Positions 4,022-19,194 of a DNA stretch of 28,823 bases are shown one piece after another. A model generated the notes under the pieces. That model was not told the origin of the DNA and ran no database searches. It saw nothing but the letters and a program-made list of their open reading frames with translations. Every line of letters begins with the position of its first letter. Within the stretch, counting starts at the first letter, position 1. The translations under genes were made by a program, and so were the position numbers. Origin of the DNA: a virus. Location: positions 1-28,823 of IMG/VR virus record IMGVR_UViG_3300027852_000141; one strand, 5' to 3'.

Positions 4022-4254
4022 GGACCCAGGACTACGTCAACAAGTGGCTGCTCGATGCGCTGAAACCCGGCGACGAGCACCTCTGTGGCGATCTTGCGGT
4101 CCTGTGCGGTTGCACGCGCAAGCAGATCATCGACGCCGCGGACGATCTGGCCGACTTCGAATTCCACCTGCATGTCGCTGACGGTGTGATGGGTGGGGGC
4201 GTGTTCGAACGCCCGAAGAAACTGTGGACCTTATTTCGCGATCACAGTGTCTAA
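4018..4254 (+). CDS. hypothetical 78-aa protein, possible DNA-binding
   Basis: A 78-residue protein. Residues about 22-45 (LCGDLAVLCGCTRKQIIDAADDLA) look like a helix-turn-helix or winged-helix segment, so DNA binding is possible. It begins in an ATGA overlap with the nuclease gene and is the last gene of this operon section; its stop lies in the operator dyad at 4253-4268. Without a structure prediction the binding role remains a guess. Confidence 0.65.
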   Translation: MRTQDYVNKWLLDALKPGDEHLCGDLAVLCGCTRKQIIDAADDLADFEFHLHVADGVMGGGVFERPKKLWTLFRDHSV

Positions 4255-4300
4255 TAAATGGCTTATAGCGCGCGGGTGAGTGTGCTATAACCAAGTTATC
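4253..4300. promoter_or_regulatory. two operator-like dyads before the next gene block
   Basis: AATAAATGGCTTATAG (4253-4268) is nearly identical to the dyad at 24-39, and TATAACCAAGTTATC (4286-4300) is a related dyad. They sit in the only gap between 4254 and 4318, which ends with the AACAACGGAGA leader of the next gene. I see no good -35 box at the right distance, so promoter activity is less certain than at 11-39 and 9066-9094. Confidence 0.5.
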
Positions 4301-9014: not shown

Positions 9015-9057
9015 CTAAGTTATGTCAAGCACAGCATGAGGATATAAGTCGCTTATC
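9013..9057. promoter_or_regulatory. operator-like dyads upstream of the 9066 promoter
   Basis: TATAAGTCGCTTATC (9043-9057) is a near-perfect dyad, and TGACTAAGTTATGTCA (9013-9028) is a related imperfect one. Neither has a clear -35/-10 arrangement of its own on either strand. They lie 9-50 bases upstream of the promoter at 9066 and may give cooperative binding of the same regulator. Confidence 0.55.
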
Positions 9058-9065
9058 GAATGTGC

Positions 9066-9094
9066 TTGACAGGTGATCAATAAGTCGCTTATAC
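9066..9094 (+). promoter_or_regulatory. strong sigma70-like promoter with operator dyad
   Basis: TTGACA (9066-9071), 17-base spacer, TTATAC (9089-9094); this is the best promoter in the window. The dyad AATAAGTCGCTTATAC (9079-9094) covers the -10 region. Expected transcription start is near 9101, just before a stable hairpin. It would drive the 9183 gene and the RNA candidate at 9318. Confidence 0.85.
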
Positions 9095-9105
9095 GTTAAT
9101 AGAAG

Positions 9106-9155
9106 GCGACGCGCTACTGGCGTAACCCGGGAAACCCATGATGGGAACGCGTCGC
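9106..9155 (+). promoter_or_regulatory. structured 5' leader with 8-bp hairpin and mini-ORF
   Basis: GCGACGCG (9106-9113) pairs perfectly with CGCGTCGC (9148-9155). The loop holds CCCGGG and CCC...GGG blocks (9126-9145) that can form an inner stem with AAA as loop. The hairpin starts about five bases from the predicted 5' end of the transcript, which would protect the mRNA. A seven-codon ORF (ATG 9138, stop 9159-9161) begins in the loop. The gene itself starts at 9183 after ACGGAGAAG. Confidence 0.5.
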
Positions 9156-9182
9156 TCTTGAAACTGAAAACGGAGAAGAACA

Positions 9183-9317
9183 ATGACTAAGATTTATGAA
9201 ATGACTTTCGGTGCGCTTTTTGCTGTTGCTGTCGTGTGGGGCGCCTATGGTGCTGTTGTAGAACCTGCGCTGGACAACCTGGAACAATCGCTCGCGTCTG
9301 TTTCGATCACCAATTGA
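9183..9317 (+). CDS. small membrane protein, 44 aa
   Basis: A 44-residue protein with one N-terminal hydrophobic helix (MTFGALFAVAVVWGAYGAVV, about 7-26) and a polar C-terminal tail. It stands alone behind the strongest promoter, has its own structured leader and AAACGGAGAAG ribosome site, and is followed by non-coding DNA. That arrangement suggests high expression, so the product or the RNA downstream is probably important. Function unknown. Confidence 0.7.
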   Translation: MTKIYEMTFGALFAVAVVWGAYGAVVEPALDNLEQSLASVSITN

Positions 9318-9452
9318 GTTACCGACCCATCGCTCTTTCGCGGTTGTTGCCTAGCAGCCGTCATAGGCCTGAGATTGCAGGCGAAGGAAGTCGGTTTGAT
9401 AGTTGCATGCTGCGATCTCAGGATAGGCGTTCGATCCTTTTGGGTCGGTGAA
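9318..9452 (+). ncRNA. candidate structured RNA, multi-stem junction
   Basis: No credible gene lies here, but complementary segments nest neatly. A closing stem of 9 bp joins ACCGACCCA (9321-9329) and TGGGTCGGT (9441-9449). Inside are an 8-bp hairpin, 9341-9348 with 9353-9360 (loop GCCT, two G-T pairs), and a 13-bp stem, CCTGAGATTGCAG (9368-9380) with CTGCGATCTCAGG (9410-9422), one G-T pair, 29-base loop. A small hairpin may form at 9425-9438. It lies between the 9183 gene and a terminator, so it would be transcribed from the 9066 promoter. I do not recognise it as a known RNA class. Confidence 0.55.
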
Positions 9453-9492
9453 ACGGTACGAGAAACCATAGAAGCGCGCTCGTCGTGTAGGT

Positions 9493-9530
9493 CGCCCGAT
9501 TCTGGGTCGCCTGATCGGCGGGCGCGTTTT
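9493..9530 (+). terminator. rho-independent terminator candidate
   Basis: CGCCCGAT (9493-9500) can pair with 9514-9524 (three-base bulge), or a shorter CGCC/GGCG hairpin forms at 9508-9520. GC-rich sequence then runs into TTTT (9527-9530) and another T-rich stretch (GCGTTATTTT). It would end the transcript from 9066, releasing the structured RNA region. Confidence 0.55.
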
Positions 9531-9552
9531 GCGTTATTTTGTTGGGTTTTGT

Positions 9553-9716
9553 GGCATGCAGAACTGCGTCACGCGTGCGCGTGTCCTTTTCGGATTTTTT
9601 TCTCATTAGACCTGCAGGACGCGCAGGGCGTGCAGGGACCGTGGTTTTCTGTCGAAAGTTCAAGGACGTAGGTTCCAGAGATTCCCTGCATGTTCCCTGC
9701 ACGGCATGCACGAACT
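9553..9716. repeat. GCAGGG/CCCTGC iterons and GGCATGCA repeats upstream of terS-like gene
   Basis: Three GCAGG units at exact 9-base steps (9614, 9623, 9632) are followed by two inverted TTCCCTGCA units 11 bases apart (9682-9690, 9693-9701). CGTGCAGGGA and TCCCTGCACG form a 10-bp inverted pair. The set is bracketed by near-identical GGCATGCA(C)GAACT copies (9553-9565, 9703-9716). A T-rich run lies at 9587-9604. Such iterons beside terminase genes suit a packaging (cos/pac) site or a replication origin; which one is not shown. Confidence 0.5.
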
Positions 9717-9822
9717 CAAGATCAACAGGTTTGAAATTGTCCTTTTGTGCGTGTGCGCATGTGAAAAACCGGCGTTTGCCTCAGCACGCACGCTGTTTCT
9801 GTTTCGGAACCTTTGATCGACG

Positions 9823-9890
9823 TTGCATCAATCGAGCGCCTTGGGTATAAGTAACTTAGGTTTTCTGGAAGAGAAATATAGTACCTTATC
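9823..9890 (+). promoter_or_regulatory. promoter and operator dyads before terS-like gene
   Basis: TTGCAT (9823-9828), 17-base spacer, TATAAG (9846-9851). The dyad TATAAGTAACTTAG (9846-9859) overlaps the -10, and a looser one, TATAGTACCTTATC (9877-9890), follows. The ribosome site GAAAGAAGG comes next. This links the packaging operon to the same regulator as the early genes. The -35 is weak. Confidence 0.5.
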
Positions 9891-9908
9891 CGAAAGAAGG
9901 TGGAGCTG

Positions 9909-10382
9909 TTGGCTAAAAAGAAAAAAGACGATCCTGGAAACGAGGTCACGGTCACGTCGTCGAAGCGCGTTGCTGCCGATGGCTCACAACGAGGCCTCAC
10001 CCGCAAAGGATCGAAGAACAAGCTGACTTTGCTCCAGGAGAACATTGCTGCCGCCATCACACGAGAAGGCGGGCACGGCGAATCTTGGGACGAGGTGGTC
10101 ATGCTGAACGTGATCGCTTACCGCCTCATGAACGGCTACGGTGCGACCGACGACAAAGGCATGCCAATCATCGACGTTGAGACGGGATCCCAAGTCATGG
10201 TACCTCCTGACTTGCCCGCAGCTGCTGCTACCTTGGCGAAGGCTGCGCCATATACGCACCAGCACCTGAAACCACGGGAGTCGGATGCTGACGACGAAAC
10301 GCAGACCGATCCGAACGAGGAGAAAGAACAGTTCCTCACGGCGCTCGAGAACATGGGCGTGAAGGTGGAACGGGACGAGTGA
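9909..10382 (+). CDS. terminase small subunit-like protein
   Basis: A protein of about 157 aa with a Lys-rich N terminus (AKKKKDD), then a GLTRKGSKNKLTLLQENI segment like that in phage small-terminase-type proteins, and VPPDLPAAAATLAKAAPYTHQHLKP, a pattern often seen next to large terminases in alphaproteobacterial phages. The C-terminal third is acidic. Small terminase subunits recognise the packaging site and hand DNA to TerL. The TTG start at 9909 is chosen because AGAAGG lies 8 bases upstream; a GTG at 9900 is the alternative. Unusually, tRNA-Trp and eight genes separate it from TerL. The iterons upstream fit a binding-site role. Confidence 0.55.
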   Translation: MAKKKKDDPGNEVTVTSSKRVAADGSQRGLTRKGSKNKLTLLQENIAAAITREGGHGESWDEVVMLNVIAYRLMNGYGATDDKGMPIIDVETGSQVMVPPDLPAAAATLAKAAPYTHQHLKPRESDADDETQTDPNEEKEQFLTALENMGVKVERDE

Positions 10383-10397: not shown

Positions 10398-10475
10398 GGG
10401 GGTGTAGCCAAGTCAGGTCTAAGGCTCCGGTCTCCAAAACCGGGATCCGCGGTTCGAATCCGCGCACCTCTGCCA
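10398..10475 (+). tRNA. tRNA-Trp (CCA)
   Basis: Cloverleaf with anticodon loop CTCCAAA on a CCGGT/ACCGG stem, T arm CGCGG-TTCGAAT-CCGCG, acceptor GGGGGTG paired with CACCTCT (two G-T pairs), discriminator G, and encoded CCA. It decodes UGG. It stands apart from the other 15 tRNAs, inside the packaging operon. Confidence 0.88.
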
Positions 10476-17729: not shown

Positions 17730-17804
17730 TGAGGAGTAGCCAAGTGGTAAGGCATGTGGCTTTGATCCACAGTACCGCAGGTTCGAATCCTGCCTCCTCA
17801 ACCA
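17730..17804 (+). tRNA. tRNA-Gln (TTG)
   Basis: Acceptor TGAGGAG/CTCCTCA, anticodon loop CTTTGAT on TGTGG/CCACA, T arm GCAGG-TTCGAAT-CCTGC, A73, CCA encoded. Decodes CAA/CAG. First of the 15-tRNA array. Confidence 0.93.
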
Positions 17805-17814
17805 AACATAGCCT

Positions 17815-17890
17815 CAGGGCATAGCTCAGCTGGAAGAGTGCCGCACTTGGAATGCGGAGGTCGCAGGTTCGAGCCCTGCTGCCCTGACCA
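17815..17890 (+). tRNA. tRNA-Pro (TGG)
   Basis: Acceptor CAGGGCA/TGCCCTG, anticodon loop CTTGGAA on CCGCA/TGCGG, T loop TTCGAGC, A73, CCA encoded. Decodes CCN by wobble. Confidence 0.92.
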
Positions 17891-17898
17891 ACACATAT

Positions 17899-17975
17899 GC
17901 CCCCTTGGGCAAATTGGTAAAGTCGACCGGCTCAGACCCGGTAGTTTCCCAGTTCGAATCTGGGAGGGGGTACCA
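17899..17975 (+). tRNA. tRNA with Leu anticodon CAG but short variable loop
   Basis: Acceptor GCCCCCT/AGGGGGT, anticodon loop CTCAGAC on ACCGG/CCGGT, T arm CCCAG-TTCGAAT-CTGGG, A73, CCA encoded. The anticodon reads CUG (Leu). Bacterial tRNA-Leu normally has a long variable arm; here only about five bases (AGTTT) separate the anticodon stem from the T stem. Confidence 0.85.
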
Positions 17976-17980
17976 ATAAC

Positions 17981-18056
17981 GCCGCGCTAGCTCAATTGGC
18001 AGAGCAGCGCTCTTGTAAAGCGAAGGTTCCGGGTTCGATGCCTGGGCGCGGCACCA
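17981..18056 (+). tRNA. tRNA-Thr (TGT)
   Basis: Acceptor GCCGCGC/GCGCGGC, D arm GCTC/GAGC, anticodon loop CTTGTAA, T loop TTCGATG, A73, CCA encoded. One mismatch at the top of the anticodon stem. Decodes ACA/ACG. Confidence 0.9.
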
Positions 18057-18063
18057 AACATAT

Positions 18064-18139
18064 TCCGGCCGTGGTGTATCGGTGGCATTCGCTCGCTGTG
18101 AACGAGCAGGAGAGGGTTCGAGTCCCTCCGCCGGGACCA
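18064..18139 (+). tRNA. tRNA-His (GTG), alphaproteobacterial type
   Basis: Anticodon loop CTGTGAA on GCTCG/CGAGC, T arm GAGGG-TTCGAGT-CCCTC, acceptor TCCGGCC with CGCCGGG. The discriminator is A73, and the base before position 1 is T, not G. Most bacteria need G-1 and C73; many alphaproteobacteria do not. Confidence 0.88.
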
Positions 18140-18141
18140 AA

Positions 18142-18214
18142 GGGGCGCGCCGTTGGGCGGCAGCTGATCCTTGCAAGATCGGCCTTCTGGGTTCGAAACC
18201 CAGGCGCTCCACCA
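18142..18214 (+). tRNA. tRNA-Ala (TGC), short D arm
   Basis: Acceptor GGGGCGC/GCGCTCC, anticodon loop CTTGCAA, T arm CTGGG-TTCGAAA-CCCAG, A73, CCA encoded. The D arm is three bases short, and position 8 is G instead of the near-universal U. It may be a decaying copy or have an unusual fold. Position 3-70 is G-T(U), the classic Ala identity pair. Confidence 0.75.
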
Positions 18215-18357
18215 AGACCTTCTTTTCTGCTTGTGCGACATGCAGGCCCGTGCGATCAATCGCGCATGGCCGGCGGCTAGTGAGGTCGCCTTCAAACATC
18301 CACGGACGACTTCAGTTGGCCAAACAGACGAAACACTCTCCGCGAAAGGGGGACACA

Positions 18358-18417
18358 ATGAAACGCAGTTATCGAAATATTATGTCCCGCTCAATGCGGA
18401 TCGAGGAACGCTCCTAA
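18358..18417 (+). CDS. possible 19-aa basic mini-protein between tRNAs
   Basis: ATG after AAAGGGGG with good spacing encodes a basic 19-residue peptide (five Arg and a Lys among 19) ending three bases before tRNA-Glu. The ribosome site is strong for such a short ORF. The preceding 18215-18357 holds no gene or tRNA I can recognise. It may be chance. Confidence 0.3.
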   Translation: MKRSYRNIMSRSMRIEERS

Positions 18418-18420
18418 ACA

Positions 18421-18498
18421 GGAGCCGTCTTCTAGCCAGGTCCAGGAAAGCGCCCTTTCAAGGCGACAACGCGAGTTCGAATCTCGTCGGCCCCACCA
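18421..18498 (+). tRNA. tRNA-Glu (TTC)
   Basis: Acceptor GGAGCCG with CGGCCCC (one A-C mismatch), anticodon loop CTTTCAA on GCGCC/GGCGA, T loop TTCGAAT, A73, CCA encoded. Decodes GAA/GAG. Confidence 0.87.
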
Positions 18499-18517
18499 GA
18501 CCTAATCTTCTCATCTC

Positions 18518-18604
18518 GGAAAATGAACCTACCTGGGTAGGCGTCGATTGCTAATCGGCAGGCACGTTTAAACGTGTGGGGATCAAGGCCTCCGTTTTCC
18601 GCCA
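18518..18604 (+). tRNA. tRNA-Ser (GCT) with GTTTAAAC palindrome in its variable arm
   Basis: Acceptor GGAAAAT/GTTTTCC, anticodon loop TTGCTAA on GTCGA/TCGGC, long variable arm, G73, CCA encoded. The variable arm contains the perfect 14-base palindrome CACGTTTAAACGTG (18563-18576), copy 8 of the recurrent motif. The T loop (ATCAAGG) departs from TTCRA, and position 8 is G, so the tRNA is divergent. Confidence 0.75.
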
Positions 18605-18605
18605 T

Positions 18606-18681
18606 ACCTGAGTAGCTTTAGTGGCAGAGCAGTCGGCTGTTAACCGAAAGGTCGCTGGTTCGAATCCAGCCTCAGGTGCCA
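18606..18681 (+). tRNA. tRNA-Asn (GTT)
   Basis: Acceptor ACCTGAG/CTCAGGT, anticodon loop CTGTTAA on TCGG/CCGA, T loop TTCGAAT, G73, CCA encoded. Decodes AAC/AAU. Confidence 0.92.
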
Positions 18682-18688
18682 AAACAAC

Positions 18689-18764
18689 GTCGCGGTAGCT
18701 CAGAGGTCAGAGCGCTGGGCTCATAACCCAGAAGTCGCAGGTTCGACTCCTGCCCGCGCCACCA
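18689..18764 (+). tRNA. tRNA with CAT anticodon (Met, possibly elongator)
   Basis: Anticodon loop CTCATAA on CTGGG/CCCAG, D arm GCTC/GAGC, T arm GCAGG-TTCGACT-CCTGC, A73, CCA encoded; acceptor GTCGCGG with CCGCGCC, one mismatch at 2-71. Three G-C pairs next to the loop resemble an initiator tRNA, but the paired 1-72 and elongator-like D arm argue against it. tRNA-Ile2 (modified CAT) is also possible. Confidence 0.85.
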
Positions 18765-18774
18765 ATTCGTTCGT

Positions 18775-18850
18775 TGAGGATTAGCTCAGCAGGTAGAGCA
18801 GGCGACCGATAATCGTCAGGCCACTGGTTCGATCCCAGTATCCTCAACCA
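18775..18850 (+). tRNA. tRNA-Ile (GAT)
   Basis: Acceptor TGAGGAT/ATCCTCA, D arm GCTC/GAGC, anticodon loop CCGATAA on GGCGA/TCGTC, T loop TTCGATC, A73, CCA encoded. Decodes AUC/AUU. Confidence 0.92.
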
Positions 18851-18857
18851 ACGAATT

Positions 18858-18933
18858 GCCTCAGAAGCTGAACTGGATCAGCACCCGGCTACGAACCGGA
18901 AGGTTGTGGGTTCGACTCCTACCTGGGGCGCCA
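18858..18933 (+). tRNA. tRNA-Arg (ACG)
   Basis: Acceptor GCCTCAG/CTGGGGC, anticodon loop CTACGAA on CCGG/CCGG, T loop TTCGACT, G73, CCA encoded. A34 must be deaminated to inosine by host TadA to read CGU/CGC/CGA. Position 8 is A rather than U. Confidence 0.87.
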
Positions 18934-18940
18934 AAACAAT

Positions 18941-19028
18941 GGGCGGGTGACCGAGTCTGGCTGATGGTGTCGGATTGTAAACCCGATTGGGAAACCACGC
19001 GTAGGTTCAAATCCTACTCCGCCCACCA
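18941..19028 (+). tRNA. tRNA-Tyr (GTA)
   Basis: Acceptor GGGCGGG/TCCGCCC, anticodon loop TTGTAAA, long variable arm as expected for bacterial Tyr, T loop TTCAAAT, A73, CCA encoded. One mismatch (31-39) closes the anticodon loop. Decodes UAC/UAU. Confidence 0.87.
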
Positions 19029-19030
19029 AT

Positions 19031-19105
19031 GCGCCGGTAGCTCAGCGGCAGAGCAGGGGCCTTTTAAGCCCTAGGTCCTGGGTTCGAGTCCCAGTCGGCA
19101 CACCA
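19031..19105 (+). tRNA. tRNA-Lys (TTT)
   Basis: Acceptor GCGCCGG with TCGGCAC (one mismatch), anticodon loop CTTTTAA on GGGGC/GCCCT, T arm CTGGG-TTCGAGT-CCCAG, A73, CCA encoded. Decodes AAA/AAG. Confidence 0.9.
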
Positions 19106-19107
19106 GT

Positions 19108-19194
19108 GGATGGTCCCGCGTCGTGGGATGCAGCCGGTCTCGAAAACCGGAGGCGACCGAAAGGTTGGGGGTTCGACTCCTCGGCCATCCGCCA
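19108..19194 (+). tRNA. tRNA-Ser (CGA)
   Basis: Acceptor GGATGGT/GCCATCC, anticodon loop CTCGAAA on CCGGT/ACCGG, long variable arm (GGCGACCGAAAGGTTG region), G73, CCA encoded. Decodes UCG. Last tRNA of the array. Confidence 0.9.

Follow-up and report, generated by a model that had tools for sequence, protein, structure and literature searches.

Comparative evidence for a conserved structured RNA between a short operon and the terminase-like genes of Nanhaivirus-like roseophages

Organization of the locus

The stretch of DNA considered here (the window) comprises the 28,823 nt of IMGVR_UViG_3300027852_000141, a 28.8-kb virus fragment belonging to a marine, Nanhaivirus-like roseophage. In its portal protein it shares 81 % identity with Dinoroseobacter phage R26L and 72 % with each of the relatives R5C and Pan1, all three of which are classed as Nanhaivirus. 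The locus runs from an operon of small ORFs through the element under study, initially delimited as positions 9318-9452, and on through a non-coding stretch to a small-terminase-like gene and then the large terminase (Table 1). As had been supposed, no credible gene lies within 9318-9452, which begins immediately after the stop of an ORF of 44 codons. The name ‘small terminase’ is given by position only, PHROG having returned no match, and the promoter/operator-like element that precedes this gene is kept in R26L, R5C and Pan1, as well as at the loci L020 and L021. Upstream of the same gene, a repeat-rich non-coding stretch (9609-9723) contains TGCAGGG motifs and a 35-nt imperfect inverted repeat; similar stretches occur in R26L and Pan1, making it a candidate packaging or replication site. 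ARAGORN and Rfam place no tRNA or tmRNA in the element and 15 tRNA genes elsewhere in the window, 14 of them clustered (coordinates 17730-19194 and 10398-10475), while R5C and R26L are reported to have none and one, respectively (PMC5454422, PMC11806900).

Ahead of the operon lies a putative sigma-70-like promoter with two copies of an operator-like palindrome, the pattern of which, ATAASNNNSTTAT, occurs six times in the window (at 4287, 9044, 9080, 17004, 17525 and 25627), with none expected in shuffled sequence. Similar sites are found on promoter-like sequences in the window, R26L, R5C, Pan1, L019, L020 and L021, and the palindrome is thus apparently a phage-wide, putative operator for some regulator. 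TTGAC(A/G)-17-TATAAG together with the operator is present upstream in R26L and L020, and L193 has a similar site. The original prediction had set the element downstream of the strongest promoter; a putative promoter does lie approximately 225 nt upstream, but an ORF intervenes and a consensus scan omitted that promoter. Separately, the 5′ leader contains a hairpin (GCGACGCG...CGCGUCGC, 9103-9178) that includes ACUGGCG and is similar to the first half of the ZMP/ZTP riboswitch (RF01750). The score of 17.5 bits is, however, below the gathering score of 39, and the hairpin is outside the element; no comparable hairpin was seen by eye in the leaders of the homologues.

Table 1. Features of the locus, with positions in the window
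Feature	Position	Strand	Remarks
Operator-like palindrome ATAAGTCGCTTAT, first copy	9044-9056	+	Identical copy at 9080-9092
Sigma-70-like promoter, TTGACA - 18 nt - TATACG	9066-9071, 9090-9095	+	Overlapped by second operator copy (9080-9092)
44-codon ORF	9183-9317	+	Small hydrophobic peptide; stop codon 1-13 nt 5′ of the RNA helices
Outer helix ACCGACCC / GGGUCGGU	9321-9328 / 9442-9449	+	8 bp, extendable to 11; extends P1
P1 closing helix, CGCU / GGCG	9331-9334 / 9426-9429	+	Homologous, 4 bp
P2 hairpin, GCGGUUGUU-GCCU-AGCAGCCGU	9340-9348 / 9353-9361	+	9 bp
P3 helix, CCUGAGAUUGCAG / CUGCGAUCUCAGG	9368-9380 / 9410-9422	+	13 bp, apical loop variable
P4 small hairpin, GGU-ACGAGAA-ACC	9454-9468	+	Loop RCGAGA in 5/5 members
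P5 long terminator hairpin and U-rich tail	9471-9541 (hairpin 9471-9530)	+	Fold z -4.6
Promoter/operator-like element TATAAGTAACTTAG	about 9845-9859	+	Separate, next transcription unit (feature 9840-10382)
Small-terminase-like ORF	9900-10382	+	Homologues found

Architecture of the element

The three complementary segments (8, 9 and 13 bp) on which the original prediction was built are present where it had placed them and fold as one unit. The reference fold of 9318-9452 has a minimum free energy (MFE) of -56.1 kcal/mol (z -3.7), equalled by none of 200 shuffled sequences; it ranks sixth among the 1,064 stretches of 135 nt obtained by scanning the whole window, and the energy alone is therefore suggestive, not decisive. 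The top-ranked stretch starts at 9451 and represents the element's own downstream hairpin, and the stretches at 4159, 11179, 17605 and 5671 (135 nt, fold z < -3.8) also outrank the element. For the cores of R26L, R5C and L193, the energy z-scores are small.

Judging from the homologues, the helices meet in a three-way junction (P1-P2-P3) and not in the four-way junction first proposed, since the extra small helices of the window's MFE fold are not conserved. P1 reads CGCY/GGCG in all five sequences, with 20 of 20 cells paired, although its sole change, a C-to-U wobble, makes for weak covariation support; an outer extension comparable to that of the window occurs in L193 and in none of the other three relatives. 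Among the five members, the consensus of J1/2 is pyrimidine-rich and J3/1 is short. P2 is near-identical in four phages, shows one compensatory series (UG/CG/UA) and carries UGCCU in its hairpin consensus; directly 3′ of it stands the conserved CAUAG (9362-9366), a joint with the consensus CAYAG that is changed in L193. P3 varies between 11 and 13 bp and has a variable cap. A pseudoknot pairing UGCCU of the P2 loop with the GGGCG strand is possible on paper; it would compete with P1, and the bases concerned are invariant.

The conserved parts do not stop at 9452, where the element had been thought to end, and run on to about 9540, taking in the hairpins P4 and P5. In the window, P4 has a stem of only 3 bp and is outside the MFE fold. 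In all five members P5 forms a stable hairpin, with an apical loop that reads AAUGAG in the four relatives and is changed in the window (i.e. conserved in 4/5 overall). A U-rich tail follows P5 in the window and L193; the other members have a weaker one, and in R5C and L020 the U-tract is faint or lacking.

Relatives and distribution

The same RNA is found at the same locus in four relatives, namely R26L, R5C and two IMG/VR contigs, bringing the membership to five. In R26L and R5C, the intergenic site contains the motif GGCTGYTGCCTMGCAGCCGTCAYAG, behind which comes a long stem whose sequence differs. The fourth member, IMG/VR contig 3300036715_002351 (L020), was obtained by a pattern scan, whereas contig 3300032253_000015 (L193) was reached by a scan with an alignment of the neighbouring small-terminase-like protein. 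A covariance model made from the other four members identifies the RNA of L193 at the corresponding site, with a score of 48 bits and an E-value of 4e-11, and, because that contig was found via the protein and not via the RNA, it constitutes an independent, non-circular confirmation. Scores with model R1 range from 48 to 121 bits for the five members, four of which built the model, with L193 being the independent one. The family, as defined for models R1/R2, is marked by a P2 hairpin with a UGCCU loop, a CAYAG-type joint, a covarying P3 and a GGCG closing strand, and the element of the window displays them all.

At the same locus in Pan1, L021, L026 and the distant L196, the RNA is absent, which indicates that members of the group can do without it. 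Exact-pattern scans yielded at least 59 IMG/VR and at least 20 bacterial-genome stretches; those inspected are, apart from the known R5C and L020, chance matches lacking the helices. A pattern for the GGGCG and P4 portion recovered the known members plus three chance matches only. The covariance model found nothing in 86 terminase- or portal-bearing loci and pieces of Pan1. It also uncovered no relative in 394 genomes from one Rhodobacteraceae family group plus 385 from its class, in a scan that had no positive control; the best score among these approximately 780 alphaproteobacterial genomes (29.6 bits) came from a match without the P2 loop and was taken as chance. The lack of a host relative in these scans, run as they were without a positive control, makes a captured host RNA unlikely. 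The distribution of the family is so far confined to part of the genus Nanhaivirus.

At the gathering score, Rfam 15 reports tRNAs only for the window and no family match in 9318-9541; in a permissive Rfam search, the element is touched only by a chance match of 12 nt and 15 bits, and three homologues gave nothing meaningful. No description of this RNA was found in the open-access literature on Nanhaivirus, roseophage non-coding RNA and similar subjects, and the passages found in the R5C and R26L papers (PMC5454422, PMC11806900) cover proteins and tRNAs only. As far as could be searched, the RNA family is apparently undescribed.

Comparative support for the structure

When the first four sequences were aligned, 93 % of cells were paired and nine pairs had changed on both sides; with five sequences, the values are 92 % and twelve pairs, eight of these in P3. 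The compensatory changes for which the original prediction had proposed to look in homologues are, therefore, present. P3 itself keeps 93.8 % of its cells paired across the five sequences despite changes on both sides in 8 of its 13 pairs, and MAFFT, which is blind to structure, gives the identical P3 register. Controls in which the helices were slid gave 28-55 % pairing, versus 92 % in the real register. In simulations along a FastTree tree, with the window's own paired sequence as root, no structural constraint and three rates, pairing averaged 56 % (sd 4.5) and reached 92 % in 0 of 3,000 runs at any of the three rates; for P3 alone, simulated pairing was 59 %, and the observed 94 % was likewise attained in none of 3,000 simulations. 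The number of double changes over all pairs was matched in 249 of 3,000 simulations at scale 1.0 and 1,591 of 3,000 at scale 1.5 and is, as such, less discriminating at high rates, so that the claim depends on the retention of pairing. Several conserved U-G pairs on the plus strand favour that strand, and not every length change inside the element is a multiple of three. On this comparative evidence from five phages, which is strong, the element is a real conserved RNA structure on the plus strand, and the original prediction of an undescribed structured RNA is borne out.

Proposed role and alternative explanations

The distance from stop codon to RNA is 2-20 nt in all five members, and the ORFs that precede it are partly unrelated between members while the RNA is constant. 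Those of the window, R5C and L020 encode short hydrophobic peptides, and those of R26L and L193 encode proteins of 92 and 136 aa, respectively; Pan1 has a small-peptide ORF and lacks the RNA. Since the RNA is kept behind unrelated ORFs and, in Pan1, the ORF exists without the RNA, the RNA is not the trailer of one gene, and its placement 2-20 nt behind unrelated ORFs gives it the appearance of an autonomous module that closes an operon at the 3′ end. Transcription of the element is suggested by the promoter, the terminator and the strand-specific G-U pairs taken together.

The best explanation, to which we assign a probability of roughly 55 %, is an autonomous, stable, trans-acting phage RNA of approximately 200 nt that is terminated and binds protein; the conserved structure is observed, and what follows for transcription and mechanism is what we infer from it. 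An operator-controlled promoter would drive a short operon of which such an RNA forms the 3′ end, and the RNA's own terminator hairpin, P5, would end the operon transcript; processing would then free the stable RNA from that transcript, and the RNA would bind in trans to a protein of the phage or of the host. Its autonomy would be based on the three-way junction, the conserved P2, the CAYAG joint and the RCGAGA and AAUGAG loops. Conservation is concentrated in the loops and joints while the helices drift, a pattern seen in RNAs that bind protein or make tertiary contacts. A role as a regulatory RNA or as a decoy, both raised in the original prediction, is possible, and nothing was found to support its third suggestion, a ribozyme-like element. 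A link to the product that is annotated as ‘ribonuclease III’ in both R26L and R5C, and not in Pan1, was considered and dropped, as no RNase III features were recognized by eye; the genes in question, R26L gp75 (L197, 28594-29307) and R5C gp68 (L199, 28460-29173), lie amid GTA-like tail genes and are probably misannotated.

The RNA could instead act only in cis, as a structured 3′-UTR in which the junction and hairpin end the operon cleanly and shield the mRNA from 3′ exonucleases. Its start just behind the stop codon in 5/5 members and the strong hairpin at its end agree with this; however, a simple stabilizer needs neither conserved loops nor an elaborate three-way junction, P5 alone being sufficient, and the upstream ORFs are completely different among some members, so we regard this explanation as unlikely. 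Going further than the autonomous, protein-binding RNA favoured above, the element might be the first representative of a functional class not seen before among phage RNAs, e.g. one that binds and redirects an enzyme of the host (RNA polymerase, a ribonuclease or a ribosome factor) or that becomes part of the packaging machinery, with recognition occurring via the conserved RCGAGA and AAUGAG loops; this we consider decidedly doubtful.

Cis antitermination, in the manner of HK022 put or lambda nut, whereby polymerase would pass P5 and go on to transcribe the packaging genes, is improbable. The element does stand directly before a terminator and upstream of the terminase-like genes, and the window has a boxA-like CGCUCUUU at 9331-9338, ahead of hairpin P2, but that stretch is absent in the other four members, leaving no conserved boxA; furthermore, a conserved promoter/operator element of its own precedes the downstream gene, and the arrangement downstream is unchanged in relatives that lack the RNA. 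Highly improbable is a DNA-level packaging or replication site whose inverted repeats merely look like RNA. The repeat-rich stretch beside the terminase-like gene, a few hundred base pairs off, would accord with such a site; against it, the many conserved G-T wobble pairs would be mismatches in DNA cruciforms, the loop sequences are conserved, and Pan1 retains the repeat-rich stretch and lacks the element. The GC-skew minima are not at the locus, and a replication origin there was rejected, as the skew shows no extremum. Finally, a fold due to chance or a coding stretch, for which one might cite the modest energy rank and the ORFs that overlap the stretch in the window, is scarcely credible given the covariation relative to slid, shuffled and tree-simulated controls and the indels that break the triplet frame, and conflicts with the comparative data as long as the five sequences are correctly aligned, in favour of which stands the P3 register that MAFFT reproduces.

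Phage annotation covers almost only proteins and tRNAs, and a structurally constrained RNA was overlooked even in R5C and R26L, which have been isolated and sequenced. Since both phages grow in the laboratory on Dinoroseobacter shibae, transcript, structure and partner are directly testable, and the presence of the RNA in some members and its absence from Pan1 provide a natural contrast.

Comparison with known phage RNAs

The put antiterminator RNA of phage HK022 consists of two adjacent hairpins near the start of the transcript. Like the roseophage element, put comprises phage RNA hairpins upstream of a terminator; the roseophage element, however, forms a three-way junction and would stand where a transcript ends, with read-through a hypothetical effect. 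The pRNA of phi29 is a structured phage RNA with a three-way junction. This junction is common to both, and the roseophage RNA gene adjoins packaging genes, but the phage groups differ, interlocking loops would be hypothetical in the roseophage RNA, and this RNA is absent from relatives that have the same packaging genes; moreover, neither the gathering-score nor the permissive Rfam search matched the phi29-type pRNA family. Small RNAs encoded by phages have been reviewed (PMC12197685). Small RNAs derived from 3′ ends are also known. With these the roseophage element has in common that it is a terminator-ended RNA in a phage genome, behind a short ORF. The RNA described here differs in being a multi-helix junction with conserved loops instead of a short antisense seed, and in having no Rfam match. 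It is, then, a new family within a known general kind, the structured non-coding RNAs of phages.
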